A DNA stretch of 41,910 nucleotides from a virus, in IMG/VR virus record IMGVR_UViG_3300025310_000002, positions 1 to 41,910 of that record; one strand, given 5' to 3'. Shown one piece after another: positions 3,322-41,910 of the stretch (the stretch's first letter is position 1; each line of letters opens with the position of its first letter). The position numbers and the translations under genes are program-made. The notes beneath the pieces are model-generated. The model searched no databases, was not told the DNA's origin, and saw only the letters and a program-made list of their open reading frames with translations.

Positions 3322-4137
3322 TTGGCTAACTATATCAAATCAGGTTCCTGTCCTGTCTGCGGCTCGTCAGATGCCCGAGCAGAATATTCGGACGGTACAC
3401 ATTTCTGTTTCTCCTGCAATACCTTTACTGGAGCAGGGCTTAAAGACCGTCTAAAACCTCGCAGGAGCAACGAGAAGGCTGTCAAGGTCATAGACACCTC
3501 ACAATGGCAATACAGCCTGCCAGAGGTCGCTACAGCATGGCTAAACAGGTATGAACTGACAAAGGATGAACTATCCGGTTTCAGGTGGAATCCTGCCCTG
3601 ACCTCTAAGCTATGGGATGGTAATGCCGGAGCTTTAGCTATGCCTCTATGGCAGCATGGCCGAGTTGTCTGTGTATCTTATCGCCTGTTTGACAATGATA
3701 AACCCAAGTCAATCACCATTGGTTATCGTCCCTATATAACTATAAGTAATATAGCCACAGAAGATAGACACATGGATATATATGGGAGGAGTCCTACTGT
3801 AATCGTGGTAGAGGATTACATTTCAGCCTTAAAGGTATCAAGGTTGTATCCATGTATCCCTCTGCTTGGTAGCAGTATGCCTGACGATGCCATTCTGAGG
3901 CTGTCTAAGGGCTATAGGAGCGTGTTTTACTGGCTAGACGCAGATAAGTGTACCTCTGCCCTTAAAATGGCTCAAAAGGCTGCACTACTGGGGATGGAAA
4001 CGAGGACGATTTACACGGAGGAAGACCCCAAGGAGTACACTGATGGACAGATAACAGAGATAGTGGAAACAAGACTGTTTAGTAATAAGAACAGTAGTCT
4101 TAATAACTTTAATGTATTTGACAGGAAGAAACAGTAG
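3322..4137 (+). CDS. DNA primase (zinc-finger plus TOPRIM), T7 gp4A-like
   Basis: This 271-residue protein makes RNA primers for lagging-strand synthesis. Cysteines C10, C13, C29 and C32 form the template-recognising zinc ribbon. The TOPRIM core follows, with the acidic motif VVEDYISALK and the DxD motif in YWLDADK. It matches the primase half of T7 gp4, with the helicase encoded separately at 5122. The start is TTG at 3322 behind AGGGG; no ATG fits before the zinc ribbon. Two unrelated GC-richer genes and a structured gap separate it from the helicase. Confidence 0.88.
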   Translation: MANYIKSGSCPVCGSSDARAEYSDGTHFCFSCNTFTGAGLKDRLKPRRSNEKAVKVIDTSQWQYSLPEVATAWLNRYELTKDELSGFRWNPALTSKLWDGNAGALAMPLWQHGRVVCVSYRLFDNDKPKSITIGYRPYITISNIATEDRHMDIYGRSPTVIVVEDYISALKVSRLYPCIPLLGSSMPDDAILRLSKGYRSVFYWLDADKCTSALKMAQKAALLGMETRTIYTEEDPKEYTDGQITEIVETRLFSNKNSSLNNFNVFDRKKQ

Positions 4138-4147
4138 TTTGTATAAT
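4118..4147 (+). promoter_or_regulatory. Consensus sigma70 promoter, TTGACA-N18-TATAAT
   Basis: Both hexamers are perfect (4118-4123 and 4142-4147) with an 18-base spacer. The promoter straddles the primase stop codon and reads into the hairpin-rich gap, with an expected start near 4154. It is the best promoter match seen in the window. Confidence 0.72.
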
Positions 4148-4153
4148 GCATTT

Positions 4154-4270
4154 AAGAGATAAAGGGGCGCAGTGTTATGCCCCTAGATTGATACTAGAAA
4201 GCAAGCCCCCTCAAAGGGCTTGCATTACTAGTTAATAGAGATAAGCGCCAATACACTTCGGCGCTATATA
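4154..4270 (+). ncRNA. Candidate structured leader or small RNA with three hairpins
   Basis: Just downstream of a consensus promoter lie three evenly spaced stem-loops: 4163-4168/4179-4184 (AGGGGC/GCCCCT, loop 10), 4201-4208/4216-4223 (GCAAGCCC/GGGCTTGC, loop 7) and 4244-4249/4260-4265 (AGCGCC/GGCGCT, loop 10). None is followed by a clear U-tract on this strand, so they are not simple terminators. The transcript could be a small RNA or a structured 5' leader for the genes from 4378. I recognise no known RNA family. Confidence 0.45.
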
Positions 4271-4314
4271 ACAAGTAAGGAATAAACAGTAGATATTCCT
4301 GTTAAACAGTAATC

Positions 4315-4343
4315 TTGTTATCTCTGTTAATTTGAAGTAAGAT
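4315..4343 (+). promoter_or_regulatory. Weak promoter candidate before the 4378 gene
   Basis: TTGTTA (4315-4320) and TAAGAT (4338-4343) are 17 bases apart, each matching four of six consensus positions. This could give the 4378-5125 insert its own transcription, but the match is weak. Confidence 0.25.
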
Positions 4344-4377
4344 AAATTCCTGTCATAACTAATAACCAGGAGGGAAT

Positions 4378-6558: not shown

Positions 6559-6898
6559 TCTTGAGAAGGCACTTGCTGGTGCTCCTGTTGTTGACGTGAC
6601 TAACCCATACAGGGAGATTATAAAAGTATATTTTATTCAGGAATTGGCGGGGGACCACAAGCTACTAATCATTTATAAAGGTGGTACTTGTGTGTGGCGC
6701 ATTGGGGGAGAACTTCGTATGGCTCCTAAGAAGGTTATGAAGTGGCTAAACTTCTACGTCAATGAACGGATAACTGACCCTAGTTTCCATCCATGGGCGT
6801 ATTACTACGATTCAAAAGAGAAGGCAGAGGAAGAAGCTATGGCGTGGAGAGGAGGATTCTTTTCACATATCGCTGTTCCAGTGGAGATTGAGGAATGA
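6530..6898 (+). CDS. Hypothetical protein upstream of polymerase (122 aa)
   Basis: The ATG at 6530 follows AAGGAGGAAG. The product starts with a short lead (MDTTKLKPFDLEKALAGAPV) and continues as a mixed alpha/beta domain with VCVWRIGGEL-like strands and an acidic C-terminal tail. Short proteins with this type of start occur beside phage replication genes, but I do not know a function. Its stop overlaps the polymerase start (ATGA at 6895). Confidence 0.7.
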   Translation: MDTTKLKPFDLEKALAGAPVVDVTNPYREIIKVYFIQELAGDHKLLIIYKGGTCVWRIGGELRMAPKKVMKWLNFYVNERITDPSFHPWAYYYDSKEKAEEEAMAWRGGFFSHIAVPVEIEE

Positions 6899-8043
6899 TC
6901 CTCACTTTTGACACAGAAACGACGACATTTGCGAAGGGGAATCCTTATAGTGTACGCAATCGTATGGTATCTATTGGCTGGAAGCTTGGCGATGGCCCTA
7001 CTACTGATGTGTTCGTGGGCGATAGTGGATGGGAGGGACAGGTTAGAACTGCGTGGGAGGCTGCTGATACTATTGTTGGCTTTAATCTCAAGTTTGATCT
7101 TGCTTGGCTGCGCAGGGAAACTGGCCTCACTGTTCGGGATAACCAGCAAGTCTATGACGTACAGCTCGCATGGTTCGTGCTCACTAACCAACAGCACCGA
7201 TATCCGAGTCTTAATCAAGTGTTAGAGTATTTCAACCTGCCTGTTAAGCTTGACGTAGTTAAGACACAGTACTGGGATAACGGAATAGACACACCTGACA
7301 TTCCTCGTCCTATTCTGTCGGAATATCTGCACCATGACGTAGAATCGACGTATCAGGCTTACCTGAAGGTTAAAGAAGCCTTGCCTGCAAGTAAGCGTAA
7401 GCTGGTGCAGCTACAGATGGCTGATCTTATCGTCCTGCAAACAATGGAGTGGGAGGGCCTCAAGTATGATAAAGAAACTTCTCTTAAGCTTGCAGAAGAA
7501 ACCCGTAAGGAGCTTGACGTTATTGATACTCAGCTTACCGATCTTGTGGGTATTGCTGGTGTTAATTTTGGTAGTGGCGATCAGCTATCGGCTATTCTGT
7601 ATGGTGGGACGATTGTTCAGGAGCATAGAGAGGAGTATCTGTTCCAGTACAAAGACCCTAAGAAGGCCCCTGCTATCAAGACCAGGAAGGTAGAGCGTGA
7701 GTACCCGATGCCTAGGCTAGTCGAACCTCTGCCACGCACTGAGTTGAAGAAGGAAGGGCTGTATGCTACTAATGAACCGACACTGAAAAGCCTTAAAGCG
7801 AAAGGTAAGGCCAAACAGATAATTGATCTGGTTCTTAAACGTGCAGCACTGGAGAAGCTGAACAGCAGTTATTACAGCGGAATCCCGAAGTTGATGGATG
7901 AGATGGACTGGCCTGATGGTGAGGTACACGGTAACTATAACCAGTGTGTTGCTACTACTGGGCGGTTATCCAGTGACAAACCAAACCAGCAGAACCTAAA
8001 CGTAGCAGCCAAGAAGCTGTTTTATTCGAGGTATGACACATGA
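6895..8043 (+). CDS. DNA polymerase A family, exonuclease part and thumb (split gene, N half)
   Basis: This 382-residue polypeptide carries the 3'-5' proofreading exonuclease: the first acidic motif FDTETTTF (D6, E8), then NLKFDLAWL, then the HHDVESTYQAY motif. The C-terminal third is the start of the polymerase domain and reaches the conserved TGRLSSDKPNQQNLN segment just before palm motif A. It stops at 8043, where an overlapping ATG at 8040 starts the second half in the -1 frame. Two coupled polypeptides probably assemble into one enzyme; a frameshift fusion is possible. The break falls between known motifs, so no residue need be lost. Confidence 0.85.
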   Translation: MILTFDTETTTFAKGNPYSVRNRMVSIGWKLGDGPTTDVFVGDSGWEGQVRTAWEAADTIVGFNLKFDLAWLRRETGLTVRDNQQVYDVQLAWFVLTNQQHRYPSLNQVLEYFNLPVKLDVVKTQYWDNGIDTPDIPRPILSEYLHHDVESTYQAYLKVKEALPASKRKLVQLQMADLIVLQTMEWEGLKYDKETSLKLAEETRKELDVIDTQLTDLVGIAGVNFGSGDQLSAILYGGTIVQEHREEYLFQYKDPKKAPAIKTRKVEREYPMPRLVEPLPRTELKKEGLYATNEPTLKSLKAKGKAKQIIDLVLKRAALEKLNSSYYSGIPKLMDEMDWPDGEVHGNYNQCVATTGRLSSDKPNQQNLNVAAKKLFYSRYDT

Positions 8044-8954
8044 TTGTCTCGTGCGATGCCTCAGGGCTGGAATGGCGAACAGCCCTGTTCTTAAGCCAAG
8101 ATAAGGTAGGGATACAGGAACTCCATGACGGTGTGGATACCCATGATGATAACCGCAGGCGGTATAAGCTAGGCGAGGGTAAAGCAGCCCGTACCACAGC
8201 TAAAATCTTCTTGTTCAAGCTGATTTATGGTGCCTCTGCCTACAGCTATGCTAATGATCCAGACTTCACGCATATCAGCACTAAAGAGAAGTTCTGGCAG
8301 GGTATCATTGACAAGACCTATGAGAAGTATCCTCAGCTTGGAGCTTGGCACGTTAAGCTAGTGCAGGAAGCTATCGAGACAGGTAAGGTAGTTATCCCTT
8401 CTGGTCGGGAGTTTGTGTTCCACGATGCTGCTAACCCAAGGGAACGACCTAAGATTCTGAACTATCCCTGTCAGGGCTTCGGCGCAGATATAGTCATGGT
8501 CGCCAGGATCAGTGCTTATAGGAGGATTAAGAAGATCAGTGACGAGATTAAGTTTGTAAATACGGTACACGATAGTAAAGTTAACGATTGTCCTGCTAAA
8601 TACCTTGACATCGTTGCACAAACGTACTATAGTTGTTACACCGACCTGCCCACGAATCTTAGCAGGATGTTTAACATAGACTTTAATGTGCCCTTGGATT
8701 GTGAAGTCACATACGGGCCTAATTTGGGGGATGAAGTGACCTGGGATAAAGAACTCCGACCTGTTCTTAAGGGCGATAAGAACCAGTGTCCTAGCTGTGG
8801 CGAGTTGTTTAACAGTACCTACGCCTTTGATACACATCGTCATGGTAGTTTCGGCAAGGATCGTCGTTGTATGACCCTTGAGGAGATGACTGAAAAGGGT
8901 ATGGCTAAGAACGACGCAGGCTTCTGGATTAGCTCAAAGAACCCATTGTACTAG
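8040..8954 (+). CDS. DNA polymerase A family, palm/fingers part, fused to FDXHR zinc domain (split gene, C half)
   Basis: All three catalytic motifs are intact: motif A CDASGLEWR (D6, E11), motif B R51/K55/F59/Y63 ending in LIYG, and motif C NTVHDSK (H177, D178). The position equivalent to E. coli F762 is Phe. After the polymerase domain, residues about 248-300 add a zinc-binding module with C250, C253, H266 and C277 around FDTHRHG, matching the FDXHR family of small phage zinc proteins. That fusion is unusual for a family A polymerase. Translation is probably coupled to the upstream half through the ATGA overlap. Confidence 0.85.
   Translation: MIVSCDASGLEWRTALFLSQDKVGIQELHDGVDTHDDNRRRYKLGEGKAARTTAKIFLFKLIYGASAYSYANDPDFTHISTKEKFWQGIIDKTYEKYPQLGAWHVKLVQEAIETGKVVIPSGREFVFHDAANPRERPKILNYPCQGFGADIVMVARISAYRRIKKISDEIKFVNTVHDSKVNDCPAKYLDIVAQTYYSCYTDLPTNLSRMFNIDFNVPLDCEVTYGPNLGDEVTWDKELRPVLKGDKNQCPSCGELFNSTYAFDTHRHGSFGKDRRCMTLEEMTEKGMAKNDAGFWISSKNPLY
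8605..8633 (+). promoter_or_regulatory. Promoter-like TTGACA-N17-TATAGT inside polymerase gene
   Basis: A perfect -35 (8605-8610) and a five-of-six -10 (8628-8633) stand 17 bases apart near the end of the polymerase gene. It would supply transcripts for the SSB, the structured gap at 10254-10560 and the exonuclease. It is one of several such matches embedded in coding sequence. Confidence 0.42.
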
Positions 8955-9710: not shown

Positions 9711-10253
9711 ATGAGCGACATTCAGATTGAGATCGTAACAAAGACCATTACCCAACCTGAGGGTAAGAAGTACAAGCAGATGGAAGTCATCTACAAGAAC
9801 CTGTCTTTCCAGGGTAAGGTAGAGAACAAGAAGATTATTGACTTCTACGCCAAAGAGATTTGGCCTGCTCTTGAGGATGCTAAACAGGGTGCTGTGTTCA
9901 CTATTAGTCGTGCTAAGGAAGGTGAATACTGGACATGGAAGGGTATTACGGCAGGTGCCGTGGGAAAGTCCAGCAGTCCTGCCACTCAGTCTACAGGCTC
10001 AGGTACGTCAAGTGCAGCCCGTACTTACGTCGCAGACGATGTTAAGCAGGACATGATTATCCGTCAGTCCAGCCTTGCTAGTGCTGTTAACTTCTGTAAG
10101 GACAAAGAACTCAAACACGATGACGTGCTCATTATTGCAAGTCAGTTTGTGGAGTTTGTGTACAATAAGCCATTTACAAACGTAAAGCCTAATCCTGTTA
10201 AAGCTGCTCTGCCTGCTGATTTGGATGACGATCTTGGGGATCTACCCATCTGA
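9711..10253 (+). CDS. Single-stranded DNA-binding protein, gp2.5-like
   Basis: This 180-residue protein fits the phage SSB plan: an N-terminal beta-rich OB-like part with aromatic residues (YWTWKG), a low-complexity Ser/Gly/Thr linker near residues 84-102, and an acidic C-terminal tail (LDDDLGDLPI) of the kind SSBs use to contact polymerase and helicase. Its position between the polymerase and the exonuclease supports this. The OB fold is inferred from length, tail and context rather than from a signature motif; a recombination accessory protein is the alternative. Confidence 0.7.
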   Translation: MSDIQIEIVTKTITQPEGKKYKQMEVIYKNLSFQGKVENKKIIDFYAKEIWPALEDAKQGAVFTISRAKEGEYWTWKGITAGAVGKSSSPATQSTGSGTSSAARTYVADDVKQDMIIRQSSLASAVNFCKDKELKHDDVLIIASQFVEFVYNKPFTNVKPNPVKAALPADLDDDLGDLPI

Positions 10254-10271
10254 TGTAGTGTAATTAGTATG

Positions 10272-10540
10272 GTCTGGTGGGAACCCTGAAAAGAATCCCA
10301 CCCTTTAGTAAGGGGAAAGTGCAGGCTGATGCACACAGCGGAAACGTCCAAGCAGGCCGCCGAAACGCAAGACGAATGGACTATAGGCAGAAAGTAATCT
10401 GAAATGTTCGGTAAAAAGATTACCCTCTGATCCGTGCAGCCGGAAAGCTGGAGATCAGCACCAGCCCCCTTACTTGAGTTGATTGTGCCAAACTTCCTTT
10501 GACCGAGATAAGATTCCCATAACGGTGCAGTCAACTCAAC
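10272..10540 (+). ncRNA. Candidate multi-helix structured RNA in a 307-base gap
   Basis: No gene fits this gap. Complementary segments form a nested set: 10276-10282/10296-10302 (7 bp); a long-range helix 10307-10315/10466-10474 (9 bp) enclosing 10319-10323/10330-10334 (5 bp), 10394-10400/10417-10423 (7 bp) and 10427-10432/10453-10458 (6 bp, with an inner CAGC/GCTG stem); and a 16-bp hairpin 10474-10489/10524-10539 with three G-U pairs and a 34-base loop. The last ends 13 bases before the AGGAG of the next gene. GAAA-type segments recur between stems. No known family was recognised with confidence; it may be a small RNA, a ribozyme or a cis-regulator. Confidence 0.6.
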
Positions 10541-10560
10541 TATGACTAACAGGAGAATAT

Positions 10561-10713
10561 ATGGCAGAGCTTAAACTGTATGTGACGATTGCTGTGGAAG
10601 ACGAGTTCTTTAGTGACGTTGACTATCCTGACCACATAGCTTACGTAATCAGTATGTTGAAGGACACTGCCGAGAGCTGGGGTGGGAGCGTAACAGACTT
10701 GGAGGTTAAATAA
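10561..10713 (+). CDS. Small acidic protein (50 aa)
   Basis: The ATG at 10561 follows AACAGGAGAATAT directly after the structured gap. The product (MAELKLYVTIAVEDEFF...) is an acidic 50-residue alpha/beta peptide. Its stop overlaps the exonuclease start (TAATG). If the structured gap is a cis-regulatory leader, this and the exonuclease are the genes it controls. Confidence 0.6.
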   Translation: MAELKLYVTIAVEDEFFSDVDYPDHIAYVISMLKDTAESWGGSVTDLEVK

Positions 10714-11417
10714 TGGACTTGCTAATTGACGGAGATATTGTCGCTTTTAAGTGTGCTTTCATTGCTGAAAATATGTCCGAAGCAGAAGCAACACAATTAG
10801 CTGATGATTTCCTTGGTAATGCTGCTGACTACTACCTTACTTTCCTTGCTCGTGCTAAGTATGGTAACAGTCAAATCTTCCTGACTGGTAAAGAGTCGTT
10901 CCGTAAGGAGGTTGATCCGACCTATAAGGAGAACAGGAAGGATAAGGCAAAGCCAAAGCACCTGGAAGCTATCCGACAGCACTTGATCGATAAGTGGGAT
11001 GCTAAGGTCAGTAAGAACGGGTACGAAGCTGACGATAGCCTGGGTTACTTGCAGACTAAAGCAACGGAGCAGTCCACAGTAATCTTTAGTATTGACAAGG
11101 ACTTGCTCCAGATTCCTGGTTATCACTTTAACTTCGATAACAACACACTGACTTACGTATTGCCGTATCAAGGTTTGAAGCAGTTCTACCTACAGATGTT
11201 GATCGGTGATCCTGTTGACAATGTTAAAGGTGTTGACGGTGTTGGCAAGGTAGGAGCAGACAAGCTGTTGAAGGGCCTGCTGACTGAAGAACAGATGTTC
11301 CAGATCGTACAGGAACAGTATGCAGACGATGCCAGGATGCTTAAGAACAGTCGGCTCCTTTGGATCAAAAGAGCAGACAAAGAAAACCCGGTAGAACAAC
11401 GATTGGAGACTAAATAA
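10713..11417 (+). CDS. 5'-3' exonuclease (FEN/PIN fold), T7 gp6-like role
   Basis: This 234-residue nuclease should remove RNA primers and degrade host DNA from 5' ends. Metal-binding motifs are visible in order: LIDGDIVAF near the N terminus, YKENRKD, GYEADDSLGYL and SIDKDLLQ, then the helix-hairpin-helix region GDPVDNVKGVDGVGKVGADK that grips duplex DNA. Length and order match phage FEN-type exonucleases. Its ATG overlaps the preceding stop and its own stop overlaps the next start. Confidence 0.85.
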   Translation: MDLLIDGDIVAFKCAFIAENMSEAEATQLADDFLGNAADYYLTFLARAKYGNSQIFLTGKESFRKEVDPTYKENRKDKAKPKHLEAIRQHLIDKWDAKVSKNGYEADDSLGYLQTKATEQSTVIFSIDKDLLQIPGYHFNFDNNTLTYVLPYQGLKQFYLQMLIGDPVDNVKGVDGVGKVGADKLLKGLLTEEQMFQIVQEQYADDARMLKNSRLLWIKRADKENPVEQRLETK

Positions 11418-16463: not shown

Positions 16464-18121
16464 TGGAAATTAAACGCTTTAAGACTAGCTTCGCTGAAAA
16501 CATCTTCCGACAGAAGTATGCCCAATCGCCGGATGACAGTTGGGATAACCTTGCAGAGCGTCTGGTAGAAGATGTCTGTGGTACACGGTGGGGTACTACC
16601 AACAAGCTAATGTCTGATTCTGATAGGAAGCAACTTGAACAATACATCAAAGAGCAGAAATTCATGCCTGGAGGACGCTACCTGTACTACGCAGGACGAG
16701 AATTCAAAGCGTATAACAATTGCTATCTCCTTCGTGCAGAATACGACACACGAGAAGAATGGGCTGAGATTGTTAAGCGATCTATGTCGTGTCTCACAAC
16801 AGGAGGAGGTATCGGAATTGACTATTCTCGTCTCCGAGCAAAGGGAAAACTCCTCCGTCGTACGGGGGGCAAAGCCAGTGGACCGATTCCTCTTATGTCA
16901 GCAATTAATGAGATCGGGCGAAACGTTATGCAAGGCGGTTCTCGACGATCAGCTATCTATGCCTCCCTGAACTGGCAGCATGAGGATATTCCTGACTTCC
17001 TGAAGATCAAGAACTGGCATGACAAGCTGATTGTTCCTGGTGTTACCATGTCGGATGCCAAAGCAGCAGACTTTAACTATCCTGCTCCGTTGGATATGAC
17101 GAACATCTCTGTGAACTACGATGATGAGTGGCTGAAGAACCCACTCAATGACGTATTCATGGAGAACTGCCGACAGGCTATGATGACAGGTGAGCCTGGA
17201 TTCAGCTTTAACTTTGGAAATAAGCAGAATGAAACGCTCCGTAATGCTTGCACGGAAGTTACGTCGGAAGACGACAGCGATGTATGCAACCTTGGTTCTA
17301 TTAACATGGGTAACATTCAGTCTCTGGAGGAGTTCAAGGACGTTGTATCTCTTGCTTCTAAGTTCCTTGTCTGTGGAACCCTCCGGGCAGACTTACCATA
17401 CGAGAAGGTATATAAAGTGCGGGAAAAGAACCGCCGACTTGGACTTGGACTTATGGGTATTCACGAATGGCTGCTCAAACGAGGATACGGATACGAAGTA
17501 ACACCGGAACTACATAAATGGCTGGAGGTATATCGTGATGAATCTGACCGAAGTGCTTATGAGCATTGTGACAGGTTGTTTATTTCTCGGCCTGTTGCTA
17601 CTCGCGCTATCGCTCCTACAGGCAGTATTGGAATATTGGCTGGGACTACCACTGGTATTGAACCGTTGTTTGCTGTGGCTTATAAGCGCCGGTACCTCAC
17701 TGATGGTACTCGCTGGAAGTATGAGTACGTTGTTGATTCTACTGCTGATACTCTTATCAAAGAGTATGGACTAGACCCTGACAAGATTGATACTGCTTAT
17801 AAACTGAGTCATAATTATGAACAACGAATCAAGTTCCAAGCTGACATTCAAGATTACGTTGACATGTCAATTAGTAGCACCATCAACCTACCAGCATGGG
17901 GAACTAAAGGTAACAACCAAGACACTGTTGGAGAATTTGCTAGTACCTTGACAAAGTATGCTCCTAGACTACGGGGATTTACATGCTATCCAGATGGTAG
18001 TCGAGGAGGTCAACCAATCACTGAAGTAAGCTACGCCGAAGCAATGCAGCATAAAGGTGTAGTGTTTAACGAACACGACGTCTGCGATATCACAGGTAAG
18101 GGCGGCTCCTGTGGCGTCTAA
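16463..18121 (+). CDS. nrdJ: Ribonucleotide reductase, adenosylcobalamin-dependent (class II)
   Basis: This 552-residue enzyme converts ribonucleotides to deoxyribonucleotides using coenzyme B12 to make its radical. The active site is complete: N261, C263 and E265 in NACTEVTS, redox Cys C275 in DVCNLGSIN and C87 in YNNCYLL, the phosphate loop PTGSIGILAGTTTGIEP, and a C-terminal shuttle pair C541/C550. No gene for a class I beta subunit is present in the window, as expected for class II. It is shorter than bacterial enzymes (about 700 or more). No B12 riboswitch is visible upstream, so the cofactor must come from the host. Confidence 0.88.
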   Translation: MEIKRFKTSFAENIFRQKYAQSPDDSWDNLAERLVEDVCGTRWGTTNKLMSDSDRKQLEQYIKEQKFMPGGRYLYYAGREFKAYNNCYLLRAEYDTREEWAEIVKRSMSCLTTGGGIGIDYSRLRAKGKLLRRTGGKASGPIPLMSAINEIGRNVMQGGSRRSAIYASLNWQHEDIPDFLKIKNWHDKLIVPGVTMSDAKAADFNYPAPLDMTNISVNYDDEWLKNPLNDVFMENCRQAMMTGEPGFSFNFGNKQNETLRNACTEVTSEDDSDVCNLGSINMGNIQSLEEFKDVVSLASKFLVCGTLRADLPYEKVYKVREKNRRLGLGLMGIHEWLLKRGYGYEVTPELHKWLEVYRDESDRSAYEHCDRLFISRPVATRAIAPTGSIGILAGTTTGIEPLFAVAYKRRYLTDGTRWKYEYVVDSTADTLIKEYGLDPDKIDTAYKLSHNYEQRIKFQADIQDYVDMSISSTINLPAWGTKGNNQDTVGEFASTLTKYAPRLRGFTCYPDGSRGGQPITEVSYAEAMQHKGVVFNEHDVCDITGKGGSCGV

Positions 18122-25066: not shown

Positions 25067-25307
25067 GATTCCTCTCTTCCGGCGGGAGATGTCTTCGTTC
25101 AATTTCTGATTCATAGCTCAGTTCACAATGCCTCTTTGTGCCTTCTTTGTCCCAAAACAGAACCTTGTCTATGATTGTTCTTAGTTGTTTGTACGGTTGT
25201 CGATCCCTACATCTGAAGCACCTTGCCGATATTGTCTCATCGGCAAAGCCTCCAGCTAGGGTGTTAAGCAGTTGGTCTACTGCGATTAACACCTGTTTCC
25301 ATCTCAT
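25050..25307 (-). CDS. Conserved small phage protein (85 aa)
   Basis: The segments LLNTLAGGFADETISARCF, RTIIDKVLFW and HCELSYESEIERRHLPPE belong to a pattern I have met in many phage genomes near the tail/lysis end, often with conflicting names. The function is unknown. It has five Arg/Cys residues clustered at 29-36. It starts by TAATG overlap with the fibre-assembly-like gene. Confidence 0.65.
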   Translation of the reverse strand: MRWKQVLIAVDQLLNTLAGGFADETISARCFRCRDRQPYKQLRTIIDKVLFWDKEGTKRHCELSYESEIERRHLPPEERNHAKSS

Positions 25308-25774
25308 TAGAGCACCAAGACAGGTAGCTCTGCTATCAGTGCTTCAATAGTTGGGGCAGTACGTGTCCCTTGTTGTACAGCACCCATTACCTGATAACAT
25401 TTAGCCCATACATCCCCACGCCAGCCTACAAAGGCTGTACCTTCAGCCTGGAAGGGATTAGGAGCACCAGCATAGCTACAGGCAGACACAATATCGTCAT
25501 AGTTCTTGGATTGTGCCTTAGCGTCCAAGTGCTTCTGTACTGCTTCTGTGTACTCTGCCACGGTAGGTAGGACTACTACAGGAGGACGTTGTACTACTGC
25601 TGTACCGTTCCACGTATAACCAGCGCAGGTAAAACCGTCTGGTACTTCAACATCCACGATCCGCCAACCTTCAATCACATGCTTAGGGTAAATAGCATCA
25701 GCAGATTTAATCTCACCAGCCTGTTCCACTATGTCTTGTGCAAGAATGTTCTCGCCTTGGATTAAGAGTTTCAT
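25307..25774 (-). CDS. Tail-fibre assembly/chaperone-like protein (155 aa)
   Basis: The gene lies directly after the receptor-binding fibre gene, joined by ATGA overlap. Its C-terminal part (YDDIVSACSYAGAPNPFQAE, then GWRGDVWAKCYQVM) matches the DUF4376/fibre-assembly type of phage protein. Such proteins help fold or attach the fibre. I chose the ATG at 25774 with GAGGTG upstream over the GTG at 25780. Confidence 0.68.
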   Translation of the reverse strand: MKLLIQGENILAQDIVEQAGEIKSADAIYPKHVIEGWRIVDVEVPDGFTCAGYTWNGTAVVQRPPVVVLPTVAEYTEAVQKHLDAKAQSKNYDDIVSACSYAGAPNPFQAEGTAFVGWRGDVWAKCYQVMGAVQQGTRTAPTIEALIAELPVLVL

Positions 25775-41783: not shown

Positions 41784-41910
41784 AATAGACTATAGCTATA
41801 CTGTAATGAGAATAGTTATCATTAAGTATTACTATGCATGGAAGGTTAGCTAGATCAAGGACAAATTACGAGGAGGAAGAGAACGTGATTGTCATTCCAT
41901 CGCTATTACT
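41784..41910. repeat. Terminal direct repeat, right copy
   Basis: These bases are identical to 1-127. They contain the same partial leader, including the Shine-Dalgarno and GTG of the possible 29-residue peptide. Joining the copies gives a 41,783-bp circle. Confidence 0.95.

Follow-up and report, generated by a model that had tools for sequence, protein, structure and literature searches.

In this work, we analyzed a viral sequence record 41,910 bases long (the window, that is, the whole stretch of DNA) and found that the 307-base gap at 10254-10560, which extends exactly from the stop of a 180-aa SSB-like ORF to the start of a 50-aa ORF, probably folds as RNA. Our preferred though tentative reading, to which we give a probability of about 40%, is that the early, plus-strand transcript carries in this gap a lineage-specific structured element which lies between cistrons and parts the SSB message from that of the 50-aa/exonuclease genes. 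Its setting within an operon, its non-coding frames, helices that are improbable by chance and compensatory pairs in its first hairpin (hairpin 1) all point in this direction. We regard the gap as an orphan structured RNA candidate and not as a demonstrated new RNA class.

Results

The gap lies in an early replication operon and is non-coding

The window carries an exact 127-base direct repeat at its ends (1-127 and 41784-41910), which makes it probable that the genome is complete. The plus strand carries the early genes, as far as about 18.7 kb, and the minus strand the structural ones. The nearest exonucleases are those of phage MW202697, Roseobacter phage CRP-5 and Methylophilales phages MEP401/402, several of which belong to the Zobellviridae, and no annotated phage with DNA close to the first 25 kb of the window was found. 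The gap sits inside a co-directional early operon whose genes mostly abut, and its neighbors are replication genes (Table 1). The SSB-like protein had no match in PHROG or Pfam and only weak tblastn relatives in MEP401/402, where they are annotated as hypothetical; we call it SSB-like on the basis of its position and of its acidic C-terminal tail, which is typical of SSBs. The 50-aa protein showed a weak full-length match to PHROG 37516 (function unknown; E 1.3e-4) and no relatives by tblastn, and the exonuclease search of the genome collection gave no match.

Two features of the neighborhood in this and related phages were also recorded. The DNA polymerase at 6895-8954 is encoded by a pair of ORFs of 382 and 304 aa that overlap and match different parts of PHROG 17, and the MEP401/402 records likewise list two polymerase genes. 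In MW202697, positions 1633-1715 of the locus L041, 5' of the SSB-like gene, read as a tRNA-gene-like sequence ending in ...GGTTCGACTCCCACTACTCGCACCA, which is missing from the features of that record.

Table 1. Features in and around the gap at 10254-10560
Feature	Position	Strand	Description	Basis
SSB-like gene	9711-10253	+	180 aa, C-terminus DDDLGDLPI	ORF
Hairpin 1	10276-10302	+	7-bp stem GGTGGGA/TCCCACC, loop ACCCTGAAAAGAA	fold prediction
Multi-helix domain	10307-10474	+	closing helix AGTAAGGGG/CCCCTTACT, 10307-10315/10466-10474	pair probabilities
Multi-helix domain stems	10319-10323/10330-10334, 10346-10350/10377-10381, 10388-10391/10426-10429, 10394-10400/10417-10423	+		predicted fold
Possible pseudoknot	10325-10459	+	GCTGAT (10325-10330) with ATCAGC (10454-10459)	6-bp exact complements
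Hairpin 2	10474-10539	+	15-16 bp stem, three G-U pairs, 34-nt loop	
50-aa gene	10561-10713	+	precedes exonuclease	codon-usage coding signal, 0.37 bits/codon
Exonuclease gene	10713-11417	+	exonuclease	PHROG 107, E 3.4e-58

Scored with the phage's own codon usage, the six frames of the gap lie at -0.1 to -0.8 bits/codon, and the SSB-like gene, the exonuclease and the 50-aa ORF at +0.37 to +0.48 by the same measure. The gap is non-coding in all six frames, which bears out the initial annotation, where these 307 bases had been described as free of genes. A GTG-started 27-aa reading at 10319-10402 (arginine-rich and loosely resembling phage N peptides) reached 0.07 bits/codon and was dropped, and a minus-strand ORF at 10142-10534 had no Pfam match. 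On the plus strand of the gap neither a promoter-like nor a terminator-like signal was found; the search for an intrinsic terminator (a GC-rich hairpin followed by a T run) was empty, in agreement with the earlier statement that the gap does not look like a terminator.

The gap holds improbable helices with modest folding energy

The helices previously listed for the gap are all present where they had been placed, with the main ones well predicted, while the inner stems at 10338-10342/10431-10435 and within 10439-10465 are weak (pair probability about 0.3). Just four Watson-Crick helices reach a length of 7 bp or more: 10276/10302 (7 bp), 10307/10474 (9 bp), 10394/10423 (7 bp) and 10474/10539 (9 bp, or 16 bp when G-U pairs are counted). 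They are mutually compatible, being nested or side by side. Four or more helices of at least 7 bp were seen in 7% of 300 shuffles, two or more Watson-Crick helices of 9 bp in 1%, and a helix of at least 15 bp including G-U pairs in none of the 300. The stems of the multi-helix domain listed in Table 1 have pair probabilities of about 0.7-1.0, the 9-bp closing helix being near 1. The pseudoknot given in Table 1 is speculative, and its pairing competes with that of CTGATC and GATCAG (10427-10432/10453-10458).

The folding energy of the gap is by itself modest, with z-scores of -2.1 for the whole gap, -2.2 for the core and -3.0 for the core plus the long hairpin, where the core boundaries were picked from the structure and inflate its score. 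Along the genome, z fell below -2 in 44 of 593 plus-strand windows of 174 nt (about 7%; 593 of 699 genome windows were scanned), and stronger folding than in the gap was predicted for two coding stretches, 17104-17277 and 25204-25377 (z about -4 to -5), one of them inside the ribonucleotide reductase gene. The proposal of a folded non-coding RNA on the plus strand is supported by the non-coding frames, the improbable long helices, the A-rich predicted single strands, the lack of an intrinsic terminator and the compensatory change in hairpin 1 described below, its energy being only modest.

Hairpin 1 is shared with a relative that lacks the remainder of the gap

Hairpin 1 stands directly behind the SSB-like gene. 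Its counterpart was found at 112-137 of the single close relative detected, an IMG/VR contig (L003) that runs from inside the SSB gene, the end of which is nearly identical in DNA to that of the window, into an exonuclease that is 65% identical. Covariation, which the initial annotation had proposed to look for in related phages, is seen here: in two sequences aligned with a hand-set register (in the MAFFT alignment the one-base gap in the loop falls at another position), two of the seven pairs show double compensatory changes (G-C to C-G and U-A to C-G), five are unchanged and none is broken. The window pairs G10277-C10301 and U10278-A10300 correspond to C113-G136 and C114-G135 of L003, and the two loops have ACCCT and AGAA in common. 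With these two sequences and this register, hairpin 1 appears to have been kept by compensatory base changes, as would be the case for a conserved structured RNA. Across IMG/VR the hairpin 1 pattern occurred in 61 stretches, the flanking TCTG with the stem extension being present in the L003 contig only, and a search with the SSB C-terminus as a DNA pattern likewise returned that contig only.

In L003, only 67 bases separate SSB from the exonuclease start, made up of the hairpin 1 counterpart and a ribosome-binding site. The multi-helix domain and the long hairpin 2 (together, part 2) are absent, as is the 50-aa gene, and hairpin 1 leads directly to the exonuclease. The 307 bases can therefore not be treated as one unit, as had been suggested, since hairpin 1 is common to both phages and the remainder is not. 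It follows that part 2 was either gained in the branch of the window or lost in that of L003, and that it is not essential to this operon, as L003 does without it.

These comparisons bear on the possibility of an insertion that is neutral or in decay (a spacer, or a remnant of exchange with another phage), its structure being mostly due to chance and having no RNA function of its own. Such an insertion would fit its absence from so close a relative, the slot between the SSB-like and exonuclease genes being empty or holding other small genes in more distant relatives, and z-scores that are ordinary along the genome. Nevertheless, long helices are improbable by chance, the predicted loops are A-rich, and long gaps are few in the early half of this phage. 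We consider this a real rival, albeit a rather doubtful one.

Part 2 has no known family or homologue

No Rfam 15 family reached its gathering threshold anywhere in the window, and at E up to 10 the gap gave just two chance snoRNA matches, mostly within the SSB gene, so that the covariance-model check suggested earlier places it in no family. The hint of RNase P RNA is not sustained: the likeness consists of loose strings only, such as GGGGAAAGT and GACGAATGG, whereas the gap is clearly shorter than bacterial RNase P RNA and has no cmscan match to the Rfam RNase P models at E up to 10. By blastn, the gap had no match in phages and only four chance matches of 22-26 bases in plasmids. Two 16-mers of the core occurred at 17 IMG/VR loci that did not otherwise resemble the gap, and a core 20-mer was not found in the genome collection. 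A single-sequence covariance model, a weak test as it has one parent sequence, returned no sequence but the window from 590 kb of loci, and a further 18 related records gave no hit. Part 2, which is known from one sequence only, is called an orphan in this sense, i.e. as having no homologue by exact 16- to 20-mers, blastn or the single-sequence model in the phage, plasmid, IMG/VR and genome collections. A literature search on the gap returned nothing.

A ribozyme that cleaves or splices itself, or else a mobile RNA element, placed behind hairpin 1 and in front of the ribosome-binding site would account for the insertion relative to L003 and for a nested fold with a possible pseudoknot. However, the gap matches no Rfam ribozyme or group I or II intron model at E up to 10, further copies are found neither in the window nor in the 18 related records, and no interrupted gene calls for splicing. 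This reading is highly improbable and, like an RNase P-like RNA, weakly supported. That 10307-10545 may be the first known example of a phage RNA class not described so far, with a regulatory or catalytic role and movable together with the 50-aa gene, also strikes us as quite unlikely.

The plus strand is the likelier RNA strand

The core folds better on the minus strand (-62 kcal/mol, z -4.1) than on the plus strand (-52 kcal/mol, z -2.2), because mismatches in the 10388-10429 stem turn into G-U pairs there. The long hairpin, by contrast, favors the plus strand (z about -3.6 to -3.9, against -2.4 on the minus strand), because its three G-U pairs become A-C mismatches on the other. Among the bases predicted to be unpaired, A makes up 44% on the plus strand and U 43% on the minus strand, and A-rich single strands are usual in folded RNAs. 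As the genes on both sides of the gap are on the plus strand, this is the likelier RNA strand.

Folding of both strands next to replication genes would also be compatible with a site acting at the DNA level (in replication, recombination or packaging), with the hairpins formed as single-stranded DNA and possibly bound by the neighboring SSB. Yet the GC skew makes no lasting switch at the gap, and the mismatches just mentioned make the long hairpin fold less well on the other strand. A DNA site is weakly supported and, in our estimation, very unlikely.

Discussion

Besides the points given at the outset, three observations lead us to favor a structured intercistronic mRNA element: the G-U pairs of the longest hairpin form solely on the plus strand, just 5' of a ribosome-binding site (the hairpin ends about 10 nt upstream of that of the 50-aa gene); the predicted unpaired bases of that strand are rich in A; and the gap has no promoter-like or terminator-like signal within a co-directional operon. 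Against it count that part 2 has no homologue and hence offers no covariation, that the z-scores are moderate, that the minus strand folds equally well and that L003 manages without part 2. A competitor among functional RNAs would be a small trans-acting RNA in part 2, either cut out of the early message or transcribed independently from a promoter of its own, with targets in the host or the phage. The compactness of the domain, with its almost certainly paired closing helix, would suit such an RNA, and so would its being non-coding and lineage-specific, as accessory genes are, but no promoter-like or terminator-like site is seen on the plus strand and part 2 has no homologue and belongs to no known family. 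This rival is real, though we hold it to be unlikely.

If the mRNA-element reading is correct, hairpin 1 would be the more ancient part, which this lineage has immediately after the SSB gene, and the multi-helix domain, the 15-16 bp hairpin and the 50-aa gene would have been gained jointly in the branch of the window (or lost in that of L003). By analogy with T7, the long hairpin might be a duplex processed by an enzyme like RNase III, and the compact domain 5' of it could then be left as the 3' terminus of the SSB message, protecting it. The 307-base gap would also end translational coupling, so that the SSB and 50-aa/exonuclease cistrons might be expressed at different levels. Transcription of the gap, processing of its RNA and the effect on expression are all inferred.

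Among known systems, the early mRNA of T7 is cut by RNase III at intercistronic hairpins, and the resemblance may lie in a long hairpin with imperfect pairing that stands between early phage genes of one transcript. In the window, however, a multi-helix domain of about 170 nt lies 5' of the hairpin, whose duplex of 15-16 bp is a predicted one. RNAs of the GOLLD/ROOL type are structured and non-coding, and some occur in phages; they are much larger than the gap and have many covarying members, whereas the gap has no Rfam match. GOLLD and ROOL are presented as large ornate bacterial and phage-associated RNAs (PMC12286853).

Should the fold be real, the gap would represent a compact RNA in the replication operon of one branch of an uncultured phage lineage, and the window, which has the element, and L003, which lacks it, would form a natural pair for comparison. 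It would also show how tightly packed phage genomes use inserted RNA to separate neighboring genes.

A second folded gap

Another gene-free gap of the window, at 4138-4377, contains several hairpins (-65.8 kcal/mol, z -4.1, with 0 of 200 shuffles as stable) and folds more strongly than the gap at 10254-10560. Neither Rfam, at gathering score, nor the phage search gave a match for it. At 4090-4313, in and just 5' of this second gap, AACAGTAGT is present four times, as two exact copies and two with one mismatch, and across the window 24 near-matches to AACAGTAGT were observed against 13.5 expected.
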